Shown: in pieces, positions 34,497-43,828 of the stretch
How positions within the stretch are numbered: the stretch's first letter is position 1
Layout of the letters: each line of letters opens with the position of its first letter
Source: an uncultured Photobacterium sp.
Lineage (GTDB): Bacteria > Pseudomonadota > Gammaproteobacteria > Enterobacterales > Vibrionaceae
Length of the DNA: 64,000 nucleotides
NCBI RefSeq assembly: GCF_947039875.1
Contig: NZ_CAMRAN010000018.1
Location: forward strand, 1-64,000
Direction of reading: 5' to 3'
Made by a program: the position numbers and the translations under genes
The notes under the pieces: generated by a model
What the model saw: only the letters and a program-made list of their open reading frames with translations
What the model was told of the DNA's origin: nothing
Databases searched by the model: none

Positions 34497-35944
34497 TAGT
34501 AATGTCACTTTTTACCAACTTAGAGATGTCACATATTGGTATACTTGGTGGTGTTTTCCGCCAAGTATAGATCTCTGTGCCATGTTACTTTCCATGAGTC
34601 CAAAAGAATTAAATCGAGTTGATGTTATTCGTGATATTAGTGAACGAAGACTTCGACAAAAAGATGCTGCTGAGTTACTGAAATTATCTCGACGACATAT
34701 CCAACGTCTCGTTAATCAATATCGCGGACAAGGTCCAGCGGGATTGGTTTCATTACGCCGTGGTAAGCCGAGTAATCGGCGCTATACACCTGAATTTAAG
34801 CAACATGTGATTGATATTGTTCGTCAGTTCTATATCGATTTTGGACCGACATTTGCTAATGAAAAATTGCGTGAAAAACACCAACTAAAACTATCAACTG
34901 AAACGTTACGTCAATGGATGATGGCGGAAGGTTTTTGGATCTCTAAACGTCAAGCAAAACCAAAGGTTTATCAACCCCGTTATCGTCGTGAATGCCTAGG
35001 TGAACTAGTACAGATAGATGGTTCTCATCATGATTGGTTTGAAGGTCGAGCAGATAAATGTTGTCTTACGGTGTATGTCGATGATGCGACAGGTCGACTC
35101 ATGACCTTGCGATTTAGTGATGTTGAATCAACCTTTGACTACATGAATATCACGCGCCAATACATTGAAGAGCATGGAAAACCTATCGCTTTTTACAGCG
35201 ACAAACATTCAGTATTTAGACTCAATCGAGACGAAGTAAAAACAGGTAAACAAATGACTGAGTTTGGCCGTGCTTTGTTTGAACTTAACATCGATTTAAT
35301 TTGTGCCAATAGTTCTCAAGCAAAAGGACGCGTAGAGCGTGCTAATAAAACACTACAAGACCGTCTGATTAAAGAAATGCGTCTTGCTAATATTGATTCG
35401 ATTGAAGAAGCCAACGCCTGGTTACCTGAATTTATTGCTGATTTTAATCAACGTTTTGCACGAACACCCTATTCACTTCACGATGCCCATCGCCCATTAC
35501 GAGAATTATCAAGTGAACTTGATGATATCTTCGCTCGTCAACGAAGCCGCGTACTCACACGCTCTCTTACTATCCAATACGATAAAGTTGTTTACTTAAT
35601 CGAACCTAACGATGCCAATAACCGTTTGATAGGTAAACCCATCATGGTTTACGACTATCCTGATGGCACCATTAGTATTAAGCATTGTGGCCAACCATTA
35701 ACTTATTCTGTTTTCGATAAACTTCGAACGGTAAACCAAGCTGCTATCGTTGATAACAAACGACTAAGTGCTGCACTCGCCTTTGCTAAGCAAAGCCAAG
35801 ACCAGAGAGAAAACACTTCGGAACGAACACGAAGTAAAAGGAACATTAGCCGAGCCGCACAACAACGAGCCATGAATATAGCCTTGATGAAAGAGTCTGA
35901 CACAGTGTGACATTTCTATCTGGGAGAATTATGTGACATTACTA
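34497..35944 (+). mobile_element. Insertion sequence A, ISNCY/IS1202-type, beside dif
   Basis: About 1448 bp bounded by the perfect 12-bp inverted repeat TAGTAATGTCAC / GTGACATTACTA (34497-34508, 35933-35944). Each end carries a second inner copy of the motif: TAGAGATGTCAC at 34521 and, inverted, TAGAAATGTCAC at 35907-35918. The inner copies are offset 24 and 26 bp, probably as twin transposase-binding sites. One intact transposase gene fills the element. The left end lies 18 bp from the XerC arm of dif. I see no exact target duplication at the ends. Confidence 0.8.
34582..35910 (+). CDS. ISNCY-family DDE transposase (element A)
   Basis: 442 residues. An N-terminal helix-turn-helix (about 8-55: QKDAAELLKLSRRHIQRLV) is followed by an rve-type catalytic core. 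DDE residues are seen in VQIDGSHHDWF, IAFYSDKHSVF and GRVERANKTLQDRL (the Glu). A C-terminal domain follows. The frame is intact, so the protein may be active. By eye it is about 60% identical to the transposase of the next element and so is not a recent copy of it. The stop overlaps the inner end repeat. Confidence 0.92.
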   Translation: MLLSMSPKELNRVDVIRDISERRLRQKDAAELLKLSRRHIQRLVNQYRGQGPAGLVSLRRGKPSNRRYTPEFKQHVIDIVRQFYIDFGPTFANEKLREKHQLKLSTETLRQWMMAEGFWISKRQAKPKVYQPRYRRECLGELVQIDGSHHDWFEGRADKCCLTVYVDDATGRLMTLRFSDVESTFDYMNITRQYIEEHGKPIAFYSDKHSVFRLNRDEVKTGKQMTEFGRALFELNIDLICANSSQAKGRVERANKTLQDRLIKEMRLANIDSIEEANAWLPEFIADFNQRFARTPYSLHDAHRPLRELSSELDDIFARQRSRVLTRSLTIQYDKVVYLIEPNDANNRLIGKPIMVYDYPDGTISIKHCGQPLTYSVFDKLRTVNQAAIVDNKRLSAALAFAKQSQDQRENTSERTRSKRNISRAAQQRAMNIALMKESDTV

Positions 35945-35974
35945 ACTTGCACTAACAGAAGGTGTAAGTCCCAT

Positions 35975-37509
35975 TTAGAAATGTCCGGTTTGAACCCGTT
36001 AGAAATGTCATGTTGAACTATCTTCAGATCATAGGTTTTGCTATGAACTGGAATCAATAAATGTTGCTCACTATGACTGAAAATGAATTAAGCCGAATAA
36101 AAGTTATTCAAGATGTTTGTGATAAACAAATTACTGGTGTTGAAGCTGCCCGTCGACTTAACTTGAGTTGTCGTCAAGTATCACGATTAGTAAAACGCTT
36201 TACTCAGTTCGGTGCTGGCGGATTACTTTCACAACAACGCGGCGTGCCAAGTAATCATCGTTATGATGATAATCATAGGCTGCGTATTTTAAATCTCATC
36301 CACGAATATTACTCAGACTTCGGACCCACGTTGGCGCGTGAAAAACTGATTGAGCACCACGGTATTAAAATTGGGTTAGAAACCTTACGCCAATGGATGA
36401 TCGCTGATGGCCTTTGGGTACCACATTTCAAACGTAAGCCTCGTGTTTATCAACCACGTCATCGACGTGATTGTTATGGTGAGTTAATTCAGATAGATGG
36501 CTCACATCATGATTGGTTTGAAGGCCGCAGCGACAAATGTTGTTTATTGGTTTTTATTGATGATGCTACCGGCAAACTAATGAACTTGCGGTTTAGCGAA
36601 ACAGAATCTGCGTTTGATTACATGGTGACAACGCGCGAATATGTTGAGCAACATGGCAAGCCCACTGCTTTTTACAGCGATCGACATGCGGTGTTTCATG
36701 TTAATAAACGGGATGCAAAAACAAACCGCATCACTCAGTTTGGTCGTGTATTGCATGACTTAAACATTGAATTGATTTGCGCAAATAGCTCTCAAGCCAA
36801 AGGCCGTGTTGAACGTGCCAACAAAACATTACAAGATCGCTTAGTCAAAGAAATGCGATTACAACACATTGATAATATTGAACAAGCTAATGCGTGGCTC
36901 CCCGACTTTATCACTGATTTTAACCGACGTTTTGCTAAAGCTGCTCAATATCCTAAAGACATGCATCGACCATTACGTGAATCGACAGATGAATTACATG
37001 ATATTTTTGCATGGCAAGAGCCAAGAAAAGTATCAAAATCACTGACATTTCAATACGAAAAAATTATCTATTTGATTGATCCAACCGAAGAAAATCAACG
37101 GCTTGTGCATCAAGTCGTTAAGGTTATTGATCGTCCAGATGGCACCATCGCGATCCAATATGGTCACCGAAAATTGGGTTTTAAAGTGTTTGATAAGCTC
37201 AAAGATGTTGATCAAGGTCAGATAGTTGATAACAAACGTTTGGGTGCAGTATTAAAATTTGCCCAAGCAAAACAGCAACAATATGACCAACAACAAAAGC
37301 GTAGTCGCAGTAAAAGCGCCCCTAAACGTACTGCCCAACAACGGGCAATCCGTCAACTTGAAGAAATAAATCCAGTGTTAATTCACCCAGAACAATTTAG
37401 ACCGAGCACCAGAAAAAAGCCGTGACTTCCCTACTCTATCCCCAATTTCACCCTAATGAACTACCTTAAAAGGAGACATTTTAATCGGGGAATAATGAGG
37501 ACATTTTAA
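35975..37509 (+). mobile_element. Insertion sequence B, ISNCY/IS1202-type
   Basis: About 1535 bp. The left end shows TTAGAAATGTCC (35975) and TTAGAAATGTCA (35999), 24 bp apart. The right end shows inverted TTAAAATGTCTC (37473-37484) and TTAAAATGTCCT (37498-37509), 25 bp apart. The termini are imperfect inverted repeats of the same TTAxAAATGTC motif used by element A. It is separated from element A by only 30 bp. No obvious target duplication. Boundaries are inferred from the repeat pairs. Confidence 0.72.
36061..37425 (+). CDS. ISNCY-family DDE transposase (element B)
   Basis: 454 residues, same order of domains as the element A transposase: helix-turn-helix (GVEAARRLNLSCRQVSRLV) and DDE core (IQIDGSHHDWF, AFYSDRHAVF, GRVERANKTLQDRL). 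A basic tail rich in Gln/Lys/Arg ends the protein. The frame is intact. Same strand as element A, so the pair could move or recombine together, although their end sequences differ. Confidence 0.92.
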   Translation: MLLTMTENELSRIKVIQDVCDKQITGVEAARRLNLSCRQVSRLVKRFTQFGAGGLLSQQRGVPSNHRYDDNHRLRILNLIHEYYSDFGPTLAREKLIEHHGIKIGLETLRQWMIADGLWVPHFKRKPRVYQPRHRRDCYGELIQIDGSHHDWFEGRSDKCCLLVFIDDATGKLMNLRFSETESAFDYMVTTREYVEQHGKPTAFYSDRHAVFHVNKRDAKTNRITQFGRVLHDLNIELICANSSQAKGRVERANKTLQDRLVKEMRLQHIDNIEQANAWLPDFITDFNRRFAKAAQYPKDMHRPLRESTDELHDIFAWQEPRKVSKSLTFQYEKIIYLIDPTEENQRLVHQVVKVIDRPDGTIAIQYGHRKLGFKVFDKLKDVDQGQIVDNKRLGAVLKFAQAKQQQYDQQQKRSRSKSAPKRTAQQRAIRQLEEINPVLIHPEQFRPSTRKKP

Positions 37510-37606: not shown

Positions 37607-38908
37607 TTATTCAGGCAAACGTTCGGCTTGCTTTAACACTCCATTAAATATCGATTCGCTAATATAATCAGGAAAGTCTTTCGGTAATTGCTCACGAATA
37701 GTGTTGATGACGACTGGTGTTTGGCTTTTCATTTCTATCATTAATTCACTGGCGCGTTGCTCTGAAAACCCAATAGCTTTAGCTGTGCTTAAAAAATGCC
37801 GTGGTTGAATAGTTTGCCATTTGTAATACTTCTTAGTGCCAATGAGTGCCATCGCCATTTTTGCTTTTTGTTTCGGAATGCTTTTTGAATCCATTAAAGG
37901 ATAAGCAGAAATAATGTCATATAATGGCGTCATGCTGTAACGGCTTTCAGGTTCTAGAAATAAGCTGAAGTTTTTTCCGTGTCCATCAATGGCAGCTAAG
38001 AGCCAAAACAGAACTTGGGCTTTAAAAAATACCTCGCGATCATGGTTTGACGTTCGAGAACCCAGCAGAAATTGCATGATGTTTAATATGCCAGGGCCAC
38101 CATCAGATTCATATTTTAATGCTGGCGCAATACCTAGTGCTTGGCACATGTCTTCTTGTGGCAATCGCATTAGCCAACTGCCATCTTGCGACCAGCGGCG
38201 ATCAAAACGTTTGAGTGCTAGTGCTTTAATGTTCTCGACATAAACAATGTTAGCTTCATTAACGCTAAAACCATAAGCGGCTGCAATTTTTAAACATAGC
38301 CATTCGTTTTCACAGCTATCTCTTAAATCAATATTTTTATGTGGCAAGATCCCTATTGGCAGTTTAAGTATATGGCTTGTTGGTGTCGATCCTTGTGGTA
38401 AATGCCATTGATTTTTATACCACAATAATCCTGTCTTCTCTTGCGCACCTGCGATGGAGATTCGAAAATCATCCGTATCCTCTAACATACCTAATGGTGC
38501 ATCACTTTGATAACCTCTTAATACTTGTGCCATACGGGTATCAGTTAATGGCTCTGCGTGTACTTGTCGTACATCTTCTAAAATTACATCGGGTGAATAT
38601 AGCTGAATTGCACCAACACAATCTCCTCCAATTTTACTAAGGAGATCAAAGGGACGCTTGGTGGTAGCTTTAAAACGAGATTGAATGCGATTGCGGATTT
38701 CTTCGTTATCAGGCAATAAATTATCAAAAAAGTTATAGGGAATGTCGCCATGATAAGGATCCTGACGTAATGGCATCGAAAGTGAAATCGCACGCGATCC
38801 TGCACGAGCAAGCCATGTTGAATGGTACTGAAAGGATATGGCACCTGATGATGCTTTTGATAATGTGCCAACTAAAATCCCATTCATTGCCACGGATAAC
38901 TTTTCCAT
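37607..38908 (-). CDS. hipA: HipA toxin, serine/threonine kinase
   Basis: 433 residues from the ATG at 38908, which has GAGGA 9 nt upstream and aligns with the start of E. coli HipA. Seen: FNFFDNLLPD-like YNFFDNLLPD, the regulatory Ser motif ISIAGAQEKTGLL, SHILKLPIG, FDRRW, and the catalytic DGHGKNFSLFLEP followed by MTPLYDIISAYP. HipA phosphorylates glutamyl-tRNA synthetase and induces persistence in E. coli. The stop of hipB lies 2 nt before this start, so the two are translationally coupled. All key residues are present, so the toxin looks functional. Confidence 0.95.
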   Translation of the reverse strand: MEKLSVAMNGILVGTLSKASSGAISFQYHSTWLARAGSRAISLSMPLRQDPYHGDIPYNFFDNLLPDNEEIRNRIQSRFKATTKRPFDLLSKIGGDCVGAIQLYSPDVILEDVRQVHAEPLTDTRMAQVLRGYQSDAPLGMLEDTDDFRISIAGAQEKTGLLWYKNQWHLPQGSTPTSHILKLPIGILPHKNIDLRDSCENEWLCLKIAAAYGFSVNEANIVYVENIKALALKRFDRRWSQDGSWLMRLPQEDMCQALGIAPALKYESDGGPGILNIMQFLLGSRTSNHDREVFFKAQVLFWLLAAIDGHGKNFSLFLEPESRYSMTPLYDIISAYPLMDSKSIPKQKAKMAMALIGTKKYYKWQTIQPRHFLSTAKAIGFSEQRASELMIEMKSQTPVVINTIREQLPKDFPDYISESIFNGVLKQAERLPE

Positions 38909-38910
38909 AG

Positions 38911-39171
38911 TTACCATTCCTCATTCCATTGTTGATTGCTGTTCTGTGTTTCTGTATTACTATTACGAGGCTGAACATGCAATTCGAGATCTAATGCCGC
39001 CAATAATTTAAATAGCGTCTCAACCTTAGTGCCTTCTGGCATATTCTCAAATGCTGATACGGTCGTTTGTTTTATGCCAACTAATTTAGCGGTATCACTT
39101 TGCGTTATTTTTTGTGCTTTGCGTTGGTCTCTTACTGCATTTGCTAGCATTTTTGCCGATGTTATTTGCAT
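38911..39171 (-). CDS. hipB: HipB antitoxin, Xre-type repressor
   Basis: 86 residues with an Xre helix-turn-helix at about 12-68 (QKITQSDTAKLVGIKQTTVSAFEN). The C-terminal tail is polar and Asn/Gln-rich, typical of the degradable HipB tail. It neutralises HipA and, with it, represses the operon through the operators just upstream. First gene of hipBA. Confidence 0.94.
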   Translation of the reverse strand: MQITSAKMLANAVRDQRKAQKITQSDTAKLVGIKQTTVSAFENMPEGTKVETLFKLLAALDLELHVQPRNSNTETQNSNQQWNEEW

Positions 39172-39190: not shown

Positions 39191-39262
39191 TATCCTCTGT
39201 AAGGGATATTTAAATATTATCCCTTGCAGGGGATATTTGCAAGTTATCCTCTATAAGGGATA
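39191..39262 (-). promoter_or_regulatory. Three HipB operators
   Basis: Three copies of TATCC-N8-GGATA, the E. coli HipB operator pattern, at 39191-39208, 39218-39235 and 39245-39262. Their starts are exactly 27 bp apart. The first lies 20 bp before the hipB start codon. The regular phasing suits cooperative binding and DNA bending by HipBA, as described for the four E. coli operators. Confidence 0.92.
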
Positions 39263-41401: not shown

Positions 41402-41486
41402 TGTTTGATAAGGTCGATATTATCAGTCGACCTTCTTACTTTTTTCTACTGTAAATTCTCATTCATTACTCTGCTTGCCTTAATAA

Positions 41487-42330
41487 CTACCCTAACCTAC
41501 CCACAAATCGTGCTATCAAGAAATCAATAAACAATCGCAGCCGTTTGGGTTGGTATTGGCGGCTTTGGTAAATCACATTTAAATCTGCACTGGCTGATGA
41601 TGTCGATGCGTTGAAGTTCTTCATGTATCCATCAAGCACAGTGACCAGTCGTTGTTGTTTTATGTCTTGCTCAATATCTAAAATTGACTTTAATGCTATA
41701 CCTGCGCTATCTAATGCCCATTGACGAATCACTTCGTCATCATCTGAGAATCGTTTGGGTAATACGGTTATAACGTTGTGTTGGGTATCGTCGCTAAAAT
41801 GCCATGTTTTCAGCTCTTCATTACTGCGTACCATGGCTAAACAATGATGATCAGCGAGATCTTGCGGTGTGATGGGAGTGCCTTTATTGGCTAAATATTG
41901 AGGCGTTGCACACAATACACGTCTGCTGGATGCCAGTTTGCGCGAGATTAGGTTACTGTCTGCTAGTTCGCCATAACGGATAACAATATCTATGCCTGAT
42001 TCCGCTAAGTTGGTGAGTTTATCGTCTAAATATAAGTATGGCACAACGTCTGGATACAATTCGCAAAACGCTGAAATTATTGGTGATATGTATTGTTTGC
42101 CTATGTCTCGGGGCGCAGCGATCTTTATCGTTCCGCGCACTTCTTGGCTACCGGTTTGGAGTAAGTTTTCTGTCTCTTTAACGCTGTCGATAATGTCTAA
42201 GCTGGCCTGATGATACATCGCGCCAGATTCTGTTAAAGAGAGATGCCTTGTACTGCGATTGAGCAACTTAACCCCATAGCGATCTTCTAATGCTTGCAGC
42301 CTTGCGGTGACAGTTGCTGATGATAAACCT
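41487..42330 (-). pseudogene. LysR-family regulator, 5' end deleted
   Basis: From about 42328 leftward the frame encodes a LysR protein starting within the helix-turn-helix (LSSATVTARLQALEDRYGVK) and continuing through a full effector domain to the normal C-terminus (FLIARFVGRLG). The first about 25 residues of a LysR helix-turn-helix are missing. The open frame continues only through antisense of the neighbouring oxidoreductase. Homology to the two divergent genes meets at about 42328. It belongs to the CrgA/DsdC-like group by motif RSTRHLSLTESG. Presumed non-functional. Confidence 0.8.
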
Positions 42331-43071
42331 ATTGCGCTATCAGCACTTAAACCAGTAGAAACCAAAGTATGGATCGCTGATGAACAAGGTAATGGCAATA
42401 TGGTTGATTGTGTTGAACCAAGAGCAATGACCCAAGCTGATATTGATCGGGTGGTGGCTGATTTTGCACATGCTGCGAAACGTGCGATTGATGCTGGCTT
42501 TGATGGTGTCGAAATTCACGGTGGTAACGGTTATCTTATCGATCAGTTCTTACGTACTAACTCTAATCATCGTACAGATAGTTACGGTGTCACTAGAGAG
42601 AACCGTATTCGTTTCTTATTAGAAGTCGTTGATGCGGTAAGTCATGTGATTGGTGCGCATAAAGTGGGTGTTCGACTGGCCCCCTTCATTACCTTTAAGG
42701 ACATGAATTGCCCTGATATTGTGCCGACCATTTTAGAGGCGACAAAACAGCTTCAAGCCCGTGATATTGGCTATTTGCATTTGTCGGAAGCGGATTGGGA
42801 TGATGCACCAGTGATCCCTGAGCAGTTTAGAATTGAGTTGCGTGAGTATTTCTCCAATACGATCATTGTTGCAGGCAGTTATACTCAAGCGCGGGCTGAT
42901 GAAATGCTTAATAAAGGCTACGCTGATTTGGTTGCGTTCGGGCGTCCGTTTATTGCTAACCCTGATTTTGTTTCGCGGTTACAACACCAACAACCGTTAG
43001 CTGACTTGGATAGCACTACGCTATTTGGTGGGAATGAACACGGTTATACTGATTATCCTGCTCTGAGTTAA
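42328..43071 (+). pseudogene. Old-yellow-enzyme flavin oxidoreductase (NemA-like), 5' end deleted
   Basis: The frame from 42328 reads PIALSALKPVETKVWIADEQ and carries the C-terminal two thirds of an OYE barrel: GFDGVEIHGGNGYLIDQFL, RTDSYGV, the FMN-binding GRPFIANPDFVSRL, and a normal end. About 120 N-terminal residues, including the flavin-binding start of the barrel, are absent. Family length is about 360. The missing part must have lain between this gene and the divergent LysR gene. Presumed non-functional. Confidence 0.82.
42581..42593 (+). other. matS-like MatP-binding site
   Basis: GTTACGGTGTCAC, one mismatch to GTGAC-RNY-GTCAC. Lies in the OYE pseudogene, 8.1 kb right of dif. Confidence 0.5.
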
Positions 43072-43093
43072 TCCAAACCAACGGTTAACACAC

Positions 43094-43172
43094 TGATGTT
43101 ATTTACATCGGGTCACCATACCATTTATATCCGCTATAGGGGATATTTTAATTTTATCCCTTACAGCGGATA
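43094..43172 (-). pseudogene. Ghost hipB promoter: two HipB operators and the start codon of a lost hipB
   Basis: TATCC-N8-GGATA occurs at 43128-43145 and 43155-43172, starts 27 bp apart as in the live operon. Between the operators and 43094 the sequence aligns without gaps to the hipB leader. A GATGTTATTT-x-CAT block (start codon ATG, codons for Ile and Thr) and TCACCA are at identical spacing. Codon 2 has changed from CAA to TAA, and homology stops near 43094, just after the OYE pseudogene. A second hipBA operon has been deleted up to its promoter. Confidence 0.8.
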
Positions 43173-43334
43173 AGTTATATAACCAATTGACTTTGTTATA
43201 TTTACATCATGCTTTAATAATCATTTGTGTTGAATTACAGTGTTTAAAACATATAAATCTAGATGCATTAATTTAATGTTAAGTTTTACTTGGCCATTTC
43301 AGTTGTTCATTTTATGTCTTTCAAAATCATATGG

Positions 43335-43700
43335 TTATAAAGTATTGCCTGACGTTGTTGTTTTATAAAAAAAGAACGATGAGCATCCTCCCCATGCAAC
43401 AATATTTACCATCAAGGCTTTTATGATATTAATTGGCGTGACAGGAATGGTTTGAAAGACAAAGAAAGTGCATAAACTTGCGATAAAGCCCACTGCGATA
43501 CCTTTGATAAACCATCTCTGTTTTAAAAAAGGCAAACAATAAAGCAATGCCCATAACCCGCCCCAAAATACTTGTTTATAGATAAAGATATGATCGGGTT
43601 GAGGTAATCCTTGCAATGGGTTGATGAGATAAATAGCGAGTACATTGGCGATACTGCCAATAAACCCTGCCCCTAAAGCGATTGTGATATTTCTAAGCAT
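43335..43700 (-). CDS. Small polytopic membrane protein, unknown
   Basis: 121 residues from the ATG at 43700 (AGAGA 6 nt upstream). The frame is open 13 codons further without a ribosome-binding site. It has four hydrophobic helices (about 5-25, 40-55, 62-80, 90-108) with the motifs GAGFIGSIANVLAIYL and FWGGLWALLYCLPFL. Not recognised. It sits between the ghost hipB promoter and a matS-like site. Confidence 0.6.
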   Translation of the reverse strand: MLRNITIALGAGFIGSIANVLAIYLINPLQGLPQPDHIFIYKQVFWGGLWALLYCLPFLKQRWFIKGIAVGFIASLCTFFVFQTIPVTPINIIKALMVNIVAWGGCSSFFFYKTTTSGNTL

Positions 43701-43828
43701 AGTGATCTCTATGTGCCAATTCTTGAAGTAATAGAACATCGCACTAATAGAAAAATTTCACTGTTATGAAAATAATTTTTTAGAGGCGTTATTTTGTTGG
43801 GCATTTCCCCAATGCTGATGGCTTATTA

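Follow-up and report, generated by a model that had tools for sequence, protein, structure and literature searches.

Two HipB-type operators without genes in Photobacterium are probably the passive fossil of a second, resident hipBA locus

In a Photobacterium genome (G000), two tandem operators of the hip type lie between two convergent 3' gene ends, 3.87 kb from the operator array of a live hipBA toxin-antitoxin locus. Passages of two E. coli studies describe hip operators with the sequence TATCCN8GGATA, to which HipB binds cooperatively (PMC3376134, PMC3920265). Why should two such operators stand where neither hipB nor hipA can be matched (42300-43740, E <= 1e-5), and do they still do anything? 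We examined them in the whole 64-kb stretch of DNA analysed here (the window) and in related genomes. The features of the live locus and of the gene-less site, which we call the ghost, are as follows:

37607..38917, minus strand: live hipA, 436 aa (HipA_C, Couple_hipA; no internal stop)
38911..39171, minus strand: live hipB, 86 aa (HTH_3; PDB HipB 2wiu_B, E 3.9e-13)
39191..39262, no strand assigned: live operator array, three operators (39191-39208, 39218-39235, 39245-39262)
43094..43108, minus strand: hipB remnant, comprising the start codon, an in-frame stop as codon 2, and codons 3-5
43109..43127, minus strand: ghost hipB leader, 19 bp, equal in length to the live leader
43128..43145, no strand assigned: proximal ghost operator, TATCCGCTATAGGGGATA on the plus strand, 15/18 identical to the live operator 39191-39208
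43155..43172, no strand assigned: distal ghost operator, TATCCCTTACAGCGGATA on the plus strand, 16/18 identical to the live operator 39218-39235

Adjoining live hipA, at 34582-37425, are two tandem ORFs with a mutual identity of 56% that look transposase-like by eye.

The pattern TATCC-N8-GGATA occurs exactly five times in the window, three times at live hipBA and twice at the ghost, while dinucleotide shuffles of the window contain 0.04 sites on average and none of 100 reached five. The 3.96-Mb genome has seven exact matches; the two outside the window are both on contig C26, and a reversed control pattern also gives two sites genome-wide. A stricter pattern, TATCCNYTRYARNGGATA, has no reversed-control matches in 52 genomes, and the ghost site is hence not a chance occurrence. 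Both loci have an operator phase of 27 bp, which, together with the pattern count, bears out the original prediction of two operators in identical phase. When ghost position 43172 is aligned without gaps to live position 39235 on the minus strand, the first operator matches at 16/18 bases, the spacer at 7/9, the second operator at 15/18 and the following 30 bases at 17/30. The distance from operator edge to ATG is 19 bp in both cases (ghost ATG 43108-43106; live ATG 39171-39169). The ghost then reads ATG-TAA-ATA-ACA-TCA against ATG-CAA-ATA-ACA-TCG in live hipB, with 13/15 bases in agreement. Codon 2 is thus TAA, as predicted, and the gap-free match with the live leader stands. The match does not end at the start codon, however, but continues for three codons beyond the stop, to the end of codon 5 at base 43094; nor is everything downstream gone, as had been claimed, since five codons survive. 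The site has no open hipB and hipA frames and so is not a functional HipBA module. What it does have is tandem operators in hipBA phase and an in-frame hipB remnant at the right place.

The immediate surroundings have also lost DNA:

42307..43071, plus strand: OYE-family flavin oxidoreductase (Oxidored_FMN), 5'-truncated, best match starting at profile position 132
42318..42331, no strand assigned: second deletion junction, at the 5' ends of LysR and OYE (9-bp repeat, seen by eye in relative G017)
43093..43100, no strand assigned: 8-bp direct repeat at the deletion junction in hipB (252 bp of relative G030 are missing here)
43282..43287, no strand assigned: third deletion junction, at a NERD gene present in G017 and G030 (6-bp repeat)
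43335..43739, minus strand: convergent right neighbour ORF43335, 3' end toward the ghost, no Pfam family matched

The window genome belongs to the genus Photobacterium, and we compared 52 genomes, this one included. Twelve carry an operator pair with 27-bp phase, 12 match the ghost DNA, and 10 encode a close HipB (>= 79% identical to the live protein). In relatives, OYE is the left neighbour of hipBA or hipB. Six genomes (G002, which is P. angustum, and G003, G021, G039, G040 and G042) carry hipBA next to OYE and oriented like the ghost, hipA lying between OYE and hipB, and their OYE gene is 91-93% identical to that of the window; the synteny with these six is confined to the OYE side, and hipA is frameshifted in one of them (G042). 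In P. piscicola (G030), the order is OYE, an intact 86-aa hipB (L086:8721-8978), two operators and NERD. The OYE and hipB matches are separated by 36 bp there, and the 18-kb stretch around hipB has no hipA match. The ghost is 95% identical to this genome over 107 bp spanning operators, leader and right flank. In a second species (G017), the order is OYE, ghost, NERD and ORF43335; it shares the codon-2 stop with the window, which G030 lacks, and has no HipB match at E <= 0.001 despite retaining both operators. The proximal operator is identical in all three genomes; the distal one is identical in G030 and differs at two N8 positions in G017. Another relative (G009) has the block and NERD but no ghost DNA match.

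The prediction had allowed that relatives might show the block arising without any linked hipBA. Instead, the OYE side holds hipBA in six relatives and hipB alone in one, so that the orthologous site does carry these genes in relatives, which supports reading the ghost as the remains of a second, separate hipBA. In G017 the operators stand alone, but its stop and deletion are those of the window, and this state is therefore derived.

The deletion itself can be read from P. piscicola, where CTGATGTT (plus strand) occurs twice, at hipB codons 3-5 and directly after the hipB stop. The window retains one copy, and the 252 bp between the copies are lost. This loss is shared with G017, at the same place to within 1 bp, although the base beside the 8-bp repeat differs between the two. 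This could mean a single deletion and a later substitution, or two deletions; the stop codon present in both speaks for a single history. As a counterpoint, the right flank of G017 is nearer to G030 (3/115 bases differ) than to the window genome (8/115), and together with the one-base junction difference this makes two separate deletions or later recombination possible. The 5' ends of LysR and OYE both went in one deletion (42318-42331), leaving overlapping frames that resemble intact short genes. With two further deletions at short repeats nearby and a 5'-truncated OYE gene, the neighbourhood is decaying as a whole.

The dead locus has probably also moved. The window and G017 are 94-96% identical over 41485-43795 but only 86% beyond 43863, and their backbone DNA identity is 84%. 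Differences at 4-fold sites are 15/106 in OYE and 15/115 in LysR, against 30/102 in ORF45013. As the block diverges less than the backbone, the stretch from LysR through OYE and the ghost to ORF43335, dead locus included, was probably recombined between species lines.

Of an addiction pair, one expects the toxin to be lost before the antitoxin. Of the 10 genomes that encode a close HipB, seven have a full-length hipA free of internal stops. In the other three, hipA is frameshifted (G042, possibly a draft sequence error), truncated (G023) or missing next to hipB (G030), and in no case is hipA present while hipB is lacking. This distribution fits toxin-first loss. A further relic occurs in G006 (L096:9434-9540), where one operator, the leader and 11 N-terminal hipB codons remain, with an internal deletion, in a genome with no HipB match at E <= 0.001. 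This relic is independent of the ghost in the window and of the live-locus type: the sequences on either side of its operator agree with those bordering the whole live array of three, at 52/60 bases upstream and 51/52 downstream.

The live locus itself belongs to a different lineage from the OYE-side resident. Its DNA is 92.0% identical to hipBA of G020 but 78.8% identical to that of G003 and about 79% to five OYE-side hipBA loci. Since a backbone gene of the window is only 79% identical to its counterpart in G020, the live locus was probably acquired by transfer.

We therefore favour, with a probability of roughly 0.86, the reading that the ghost is the fossil of a resident OYE-side hipBA whose operators are now most likely passive. 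We infer the following order of events. A resident hipBA would once have stood beside OYE and lost hipA first; hipB, still under its two operators, would have outlasted it for a while before acquiring the codon-2 stop and losing 252 bp between the 8-bp repeats. Operators, leader and five codons would be the residue of this decay, with a different hipBA lineage now 3.9 kb away. Given an unaltered consensus and a conserved recognition-helix region, live HipB could probably still bind the ghost operators, but it would control no evident gene there, and at most a few HipB dimers would be held. One counterpoint is that none of the 20 half-site bases differs among the three species, a pattern that function could also explain.

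Could such operators nevertheless have a use? The broadest proposal is that stand-alone HipB operator pairs form a real HipB-binding class, made up of dead-hipBA leftovers in chromosomes and of pairs in front of small phage genes; the few HipB molecules of a cell would be divided between hipBA and such sites, and both the ghost and infecting phages might then alter how HipBA regulates itself. We consider this unlikely. Similar operators do occur elsewhere.

Four Photobacterium genomes have solo operators downstream of a DUF6559 gene (L086:10955, L087:11610, L098:9134, L096:8864). They lie between this gene (ORF43915) and the homologue of ORF45013, presumably a nuclease, in G030, G020, G025 and G006, and their flanking sequences are similar by eye. 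As no hipB remnant stands beside them, apart from the separate relic in G006, we did not count them as ghosts. G020 has a degenerate second operator 27 bp beyond the first. Other pattern matches in the genomes compared, left out of account here, comprise sites near more distant HipB matches in G004 and G026 (35% and 49%), a single site without a close HipB in G036, and a pair at a contig end in G047.

A worldwide scan for operator pairs gave at least 119 stretches, of which 80 loci were examined; several of the non-gammaproteobacterial ones may be chance matches. Among the matches listed, a HipB-like ORF lies within 140 bp in 57/80 loci and is absent in 23/80. Six of these 23 are <= 700 bp from the end of the locus. 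Some HipBs may have been missed, since the HMM started from Photobacterium HipBs and its iterations used these very loci. In Chimaeribacter arupi (L216:3982-4150), the pair abuts a 41-residue HipA C-terminal fragment, with no hipB found; this is another hipBA ghost, outside Photobacterium. In a Legionellales MAG (L211:2680-2725), the pair and hipB flank hipA on opposite sides, with 62 bp between the pair and hipA. The remaining HipB-less loci are in part phage-like.

In viral contigs, the pair pattern was found in at least 120 stretches, and the 80 loci examined (L259-L338) hold 71 distinct pair sequences. Among the matches listed, no HipB-like ORF lies within 700 bp of any of the 80 pairs (63 have full flanks; in 17, one flank is shorter than 700 bp), and only one has hipA nearby (L293). 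With 26-30 bp allowed, the phase is 28 bp in 63 of the listed pairs, 27 in 16 and 30 in one. In 12 of 91 loci (the 80 viral ones plus 11 genomic ones without adjoining hipB), the gene whose ATG follows the pair at 11-12 bp encodes a member of one small protein family, a representative of which matches phrog_6581. Several viral pairs lie directly upstream of small ORFs (phrog_6581, phrog_698 and phrog_4567; for example L286:1387-1432 and L302:263-308), which are candidate phage genes under repression by HipB of the host or by a regulator of the phage itself. We treat these viral pairs as a lead that stands apart from the ghost. The pair region of L302:263-308 also has matches in E. coli chromosomes, located at a DinI-like gene (H46-H53, among the matches listed). 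Part of the L302 query is matched by 140/5426 E. coli genomes, and part of L286 by 26/5426. Enterobacteria phage mEp390, considered as a potential carrier of many such sites, has no operator of this kind; in the stretch from phage Fraca there is a single one.

A narrower use is that the ghost operators titrate live HipB or HipBA, which would raise hipBA expression or alter persistence; titration of HipB had been suggested in the original prediction. HipB binding to the ghost is plausible: both operators fit TATCCN8GGATA in 27-bp phase, their half-sites are unchanged across three species, the HTH region is common to the live and orphan HipB but for a few residues, and E. coli HipB is reported to bind the same consensus, with a Kd of 0.6 nM on O1O2 (PMC3376134). 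Constraint on the half-sites falls short of significance. In a three-way alignment of the window, G017 and G030, 18/195 columns vary, with 0/20 in the half-sites (P = 0.13, a figure that overstates what bears on the ghost, as the G030 branch has a live hipB) and 2/36 in the operators (P = 0.32). Nor are the sites retained only where HipB is present, given that G017 keeps both without a HipB match (E <= 0.001). Adjacent genes decay via the same kind of deletion, and two operators added to three on an autoregulated promoter would be expected to be compensated. The decoy claim is thus unsupported, and we consider it unlikely. Among the matches listed, we found no paper on HipB decoy operators in the open-licence PMC literature; in the relevant passages of PMC7029023, "decoy" refers to a peptide database, and the HipB titration proposed is by a second HipA protein.

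The ghost operators might also have been taken over to regulate a neighbouring gene or a transcript antisense to OYE. According to passages of two reviews, 33 E. coli genes have HipB sites in front of them, and those of relA, eutH and fadH were tested (PMC10305079, PMC3920263). Here, though, both neighbouring genes end toward the ghost; the 3' end of ORF43335 faces it, and the ghost is hence not the ORF43335 promoter. OYE is itself truncated. Gene orientation leads us to reject a promoter of a neighbour, and a scan adds only that promoter-like matches near the ghost number 1 against 2.3 expected from shuffles, a weak point as the same scan gives 0 at the live array. We regard regulatory reuse as highly improbable.

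Least likely of all, to the point of being nearly negligible, is that a copy of the live operator region arose 4 kb away and at no time had genes of its own. This would account for the ungapped similarity to the live leader, but the ghost is nearer to the OYE-side hipB leader of G030 (95% over 107 bp) than to the live array (31/36 operator bases, then 17/30), and seven relatives have hipB or hipBA at the OYE-side site. The ghost is more than a duplicate of the live locus; it represents the lineage resident on the OYE side.

With the ghost as its last stage, the death of a toxin-antitoxin locus can be read at a single place in the chromosome, from intact hipBA through hipB with a broken or missing hipA to operators alone. 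It is also a warning that operator motifs by themselves are no proof of a live toxin-antitoxin system. Should HipB turn out to bind operators that are leftovers or carried by phages, this persistence regulator would have a regulon extending beyond the promoter of its own locus.

Compared with E. coli HipBA, the live locus has the same half-sites, N8 spacing, tandem operators upstream of hipB and autoregulation layout, but E. coli has four operators, the live locus three and the gene-less ghost two. The E. coli HipB sites at relA, eutH and fadH, as far as described in passages of PMC10305079 and PMC3920263, resemble the ghost in lying away from hipBA; however, they are upstream of genes, whereas the ghost lies between convergent gene ends and descends from hipBA. 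Chromosomal type II toxin-antitoxin loci are described in part of PMC7167474 as decaying through deletion or nonsense mutation, and the ghost has both. Such decay is already known; the ghost differs in being reduced to operators and five codons, with the toxin-first stages readable across species at one site, and is a new and unusually readable case.
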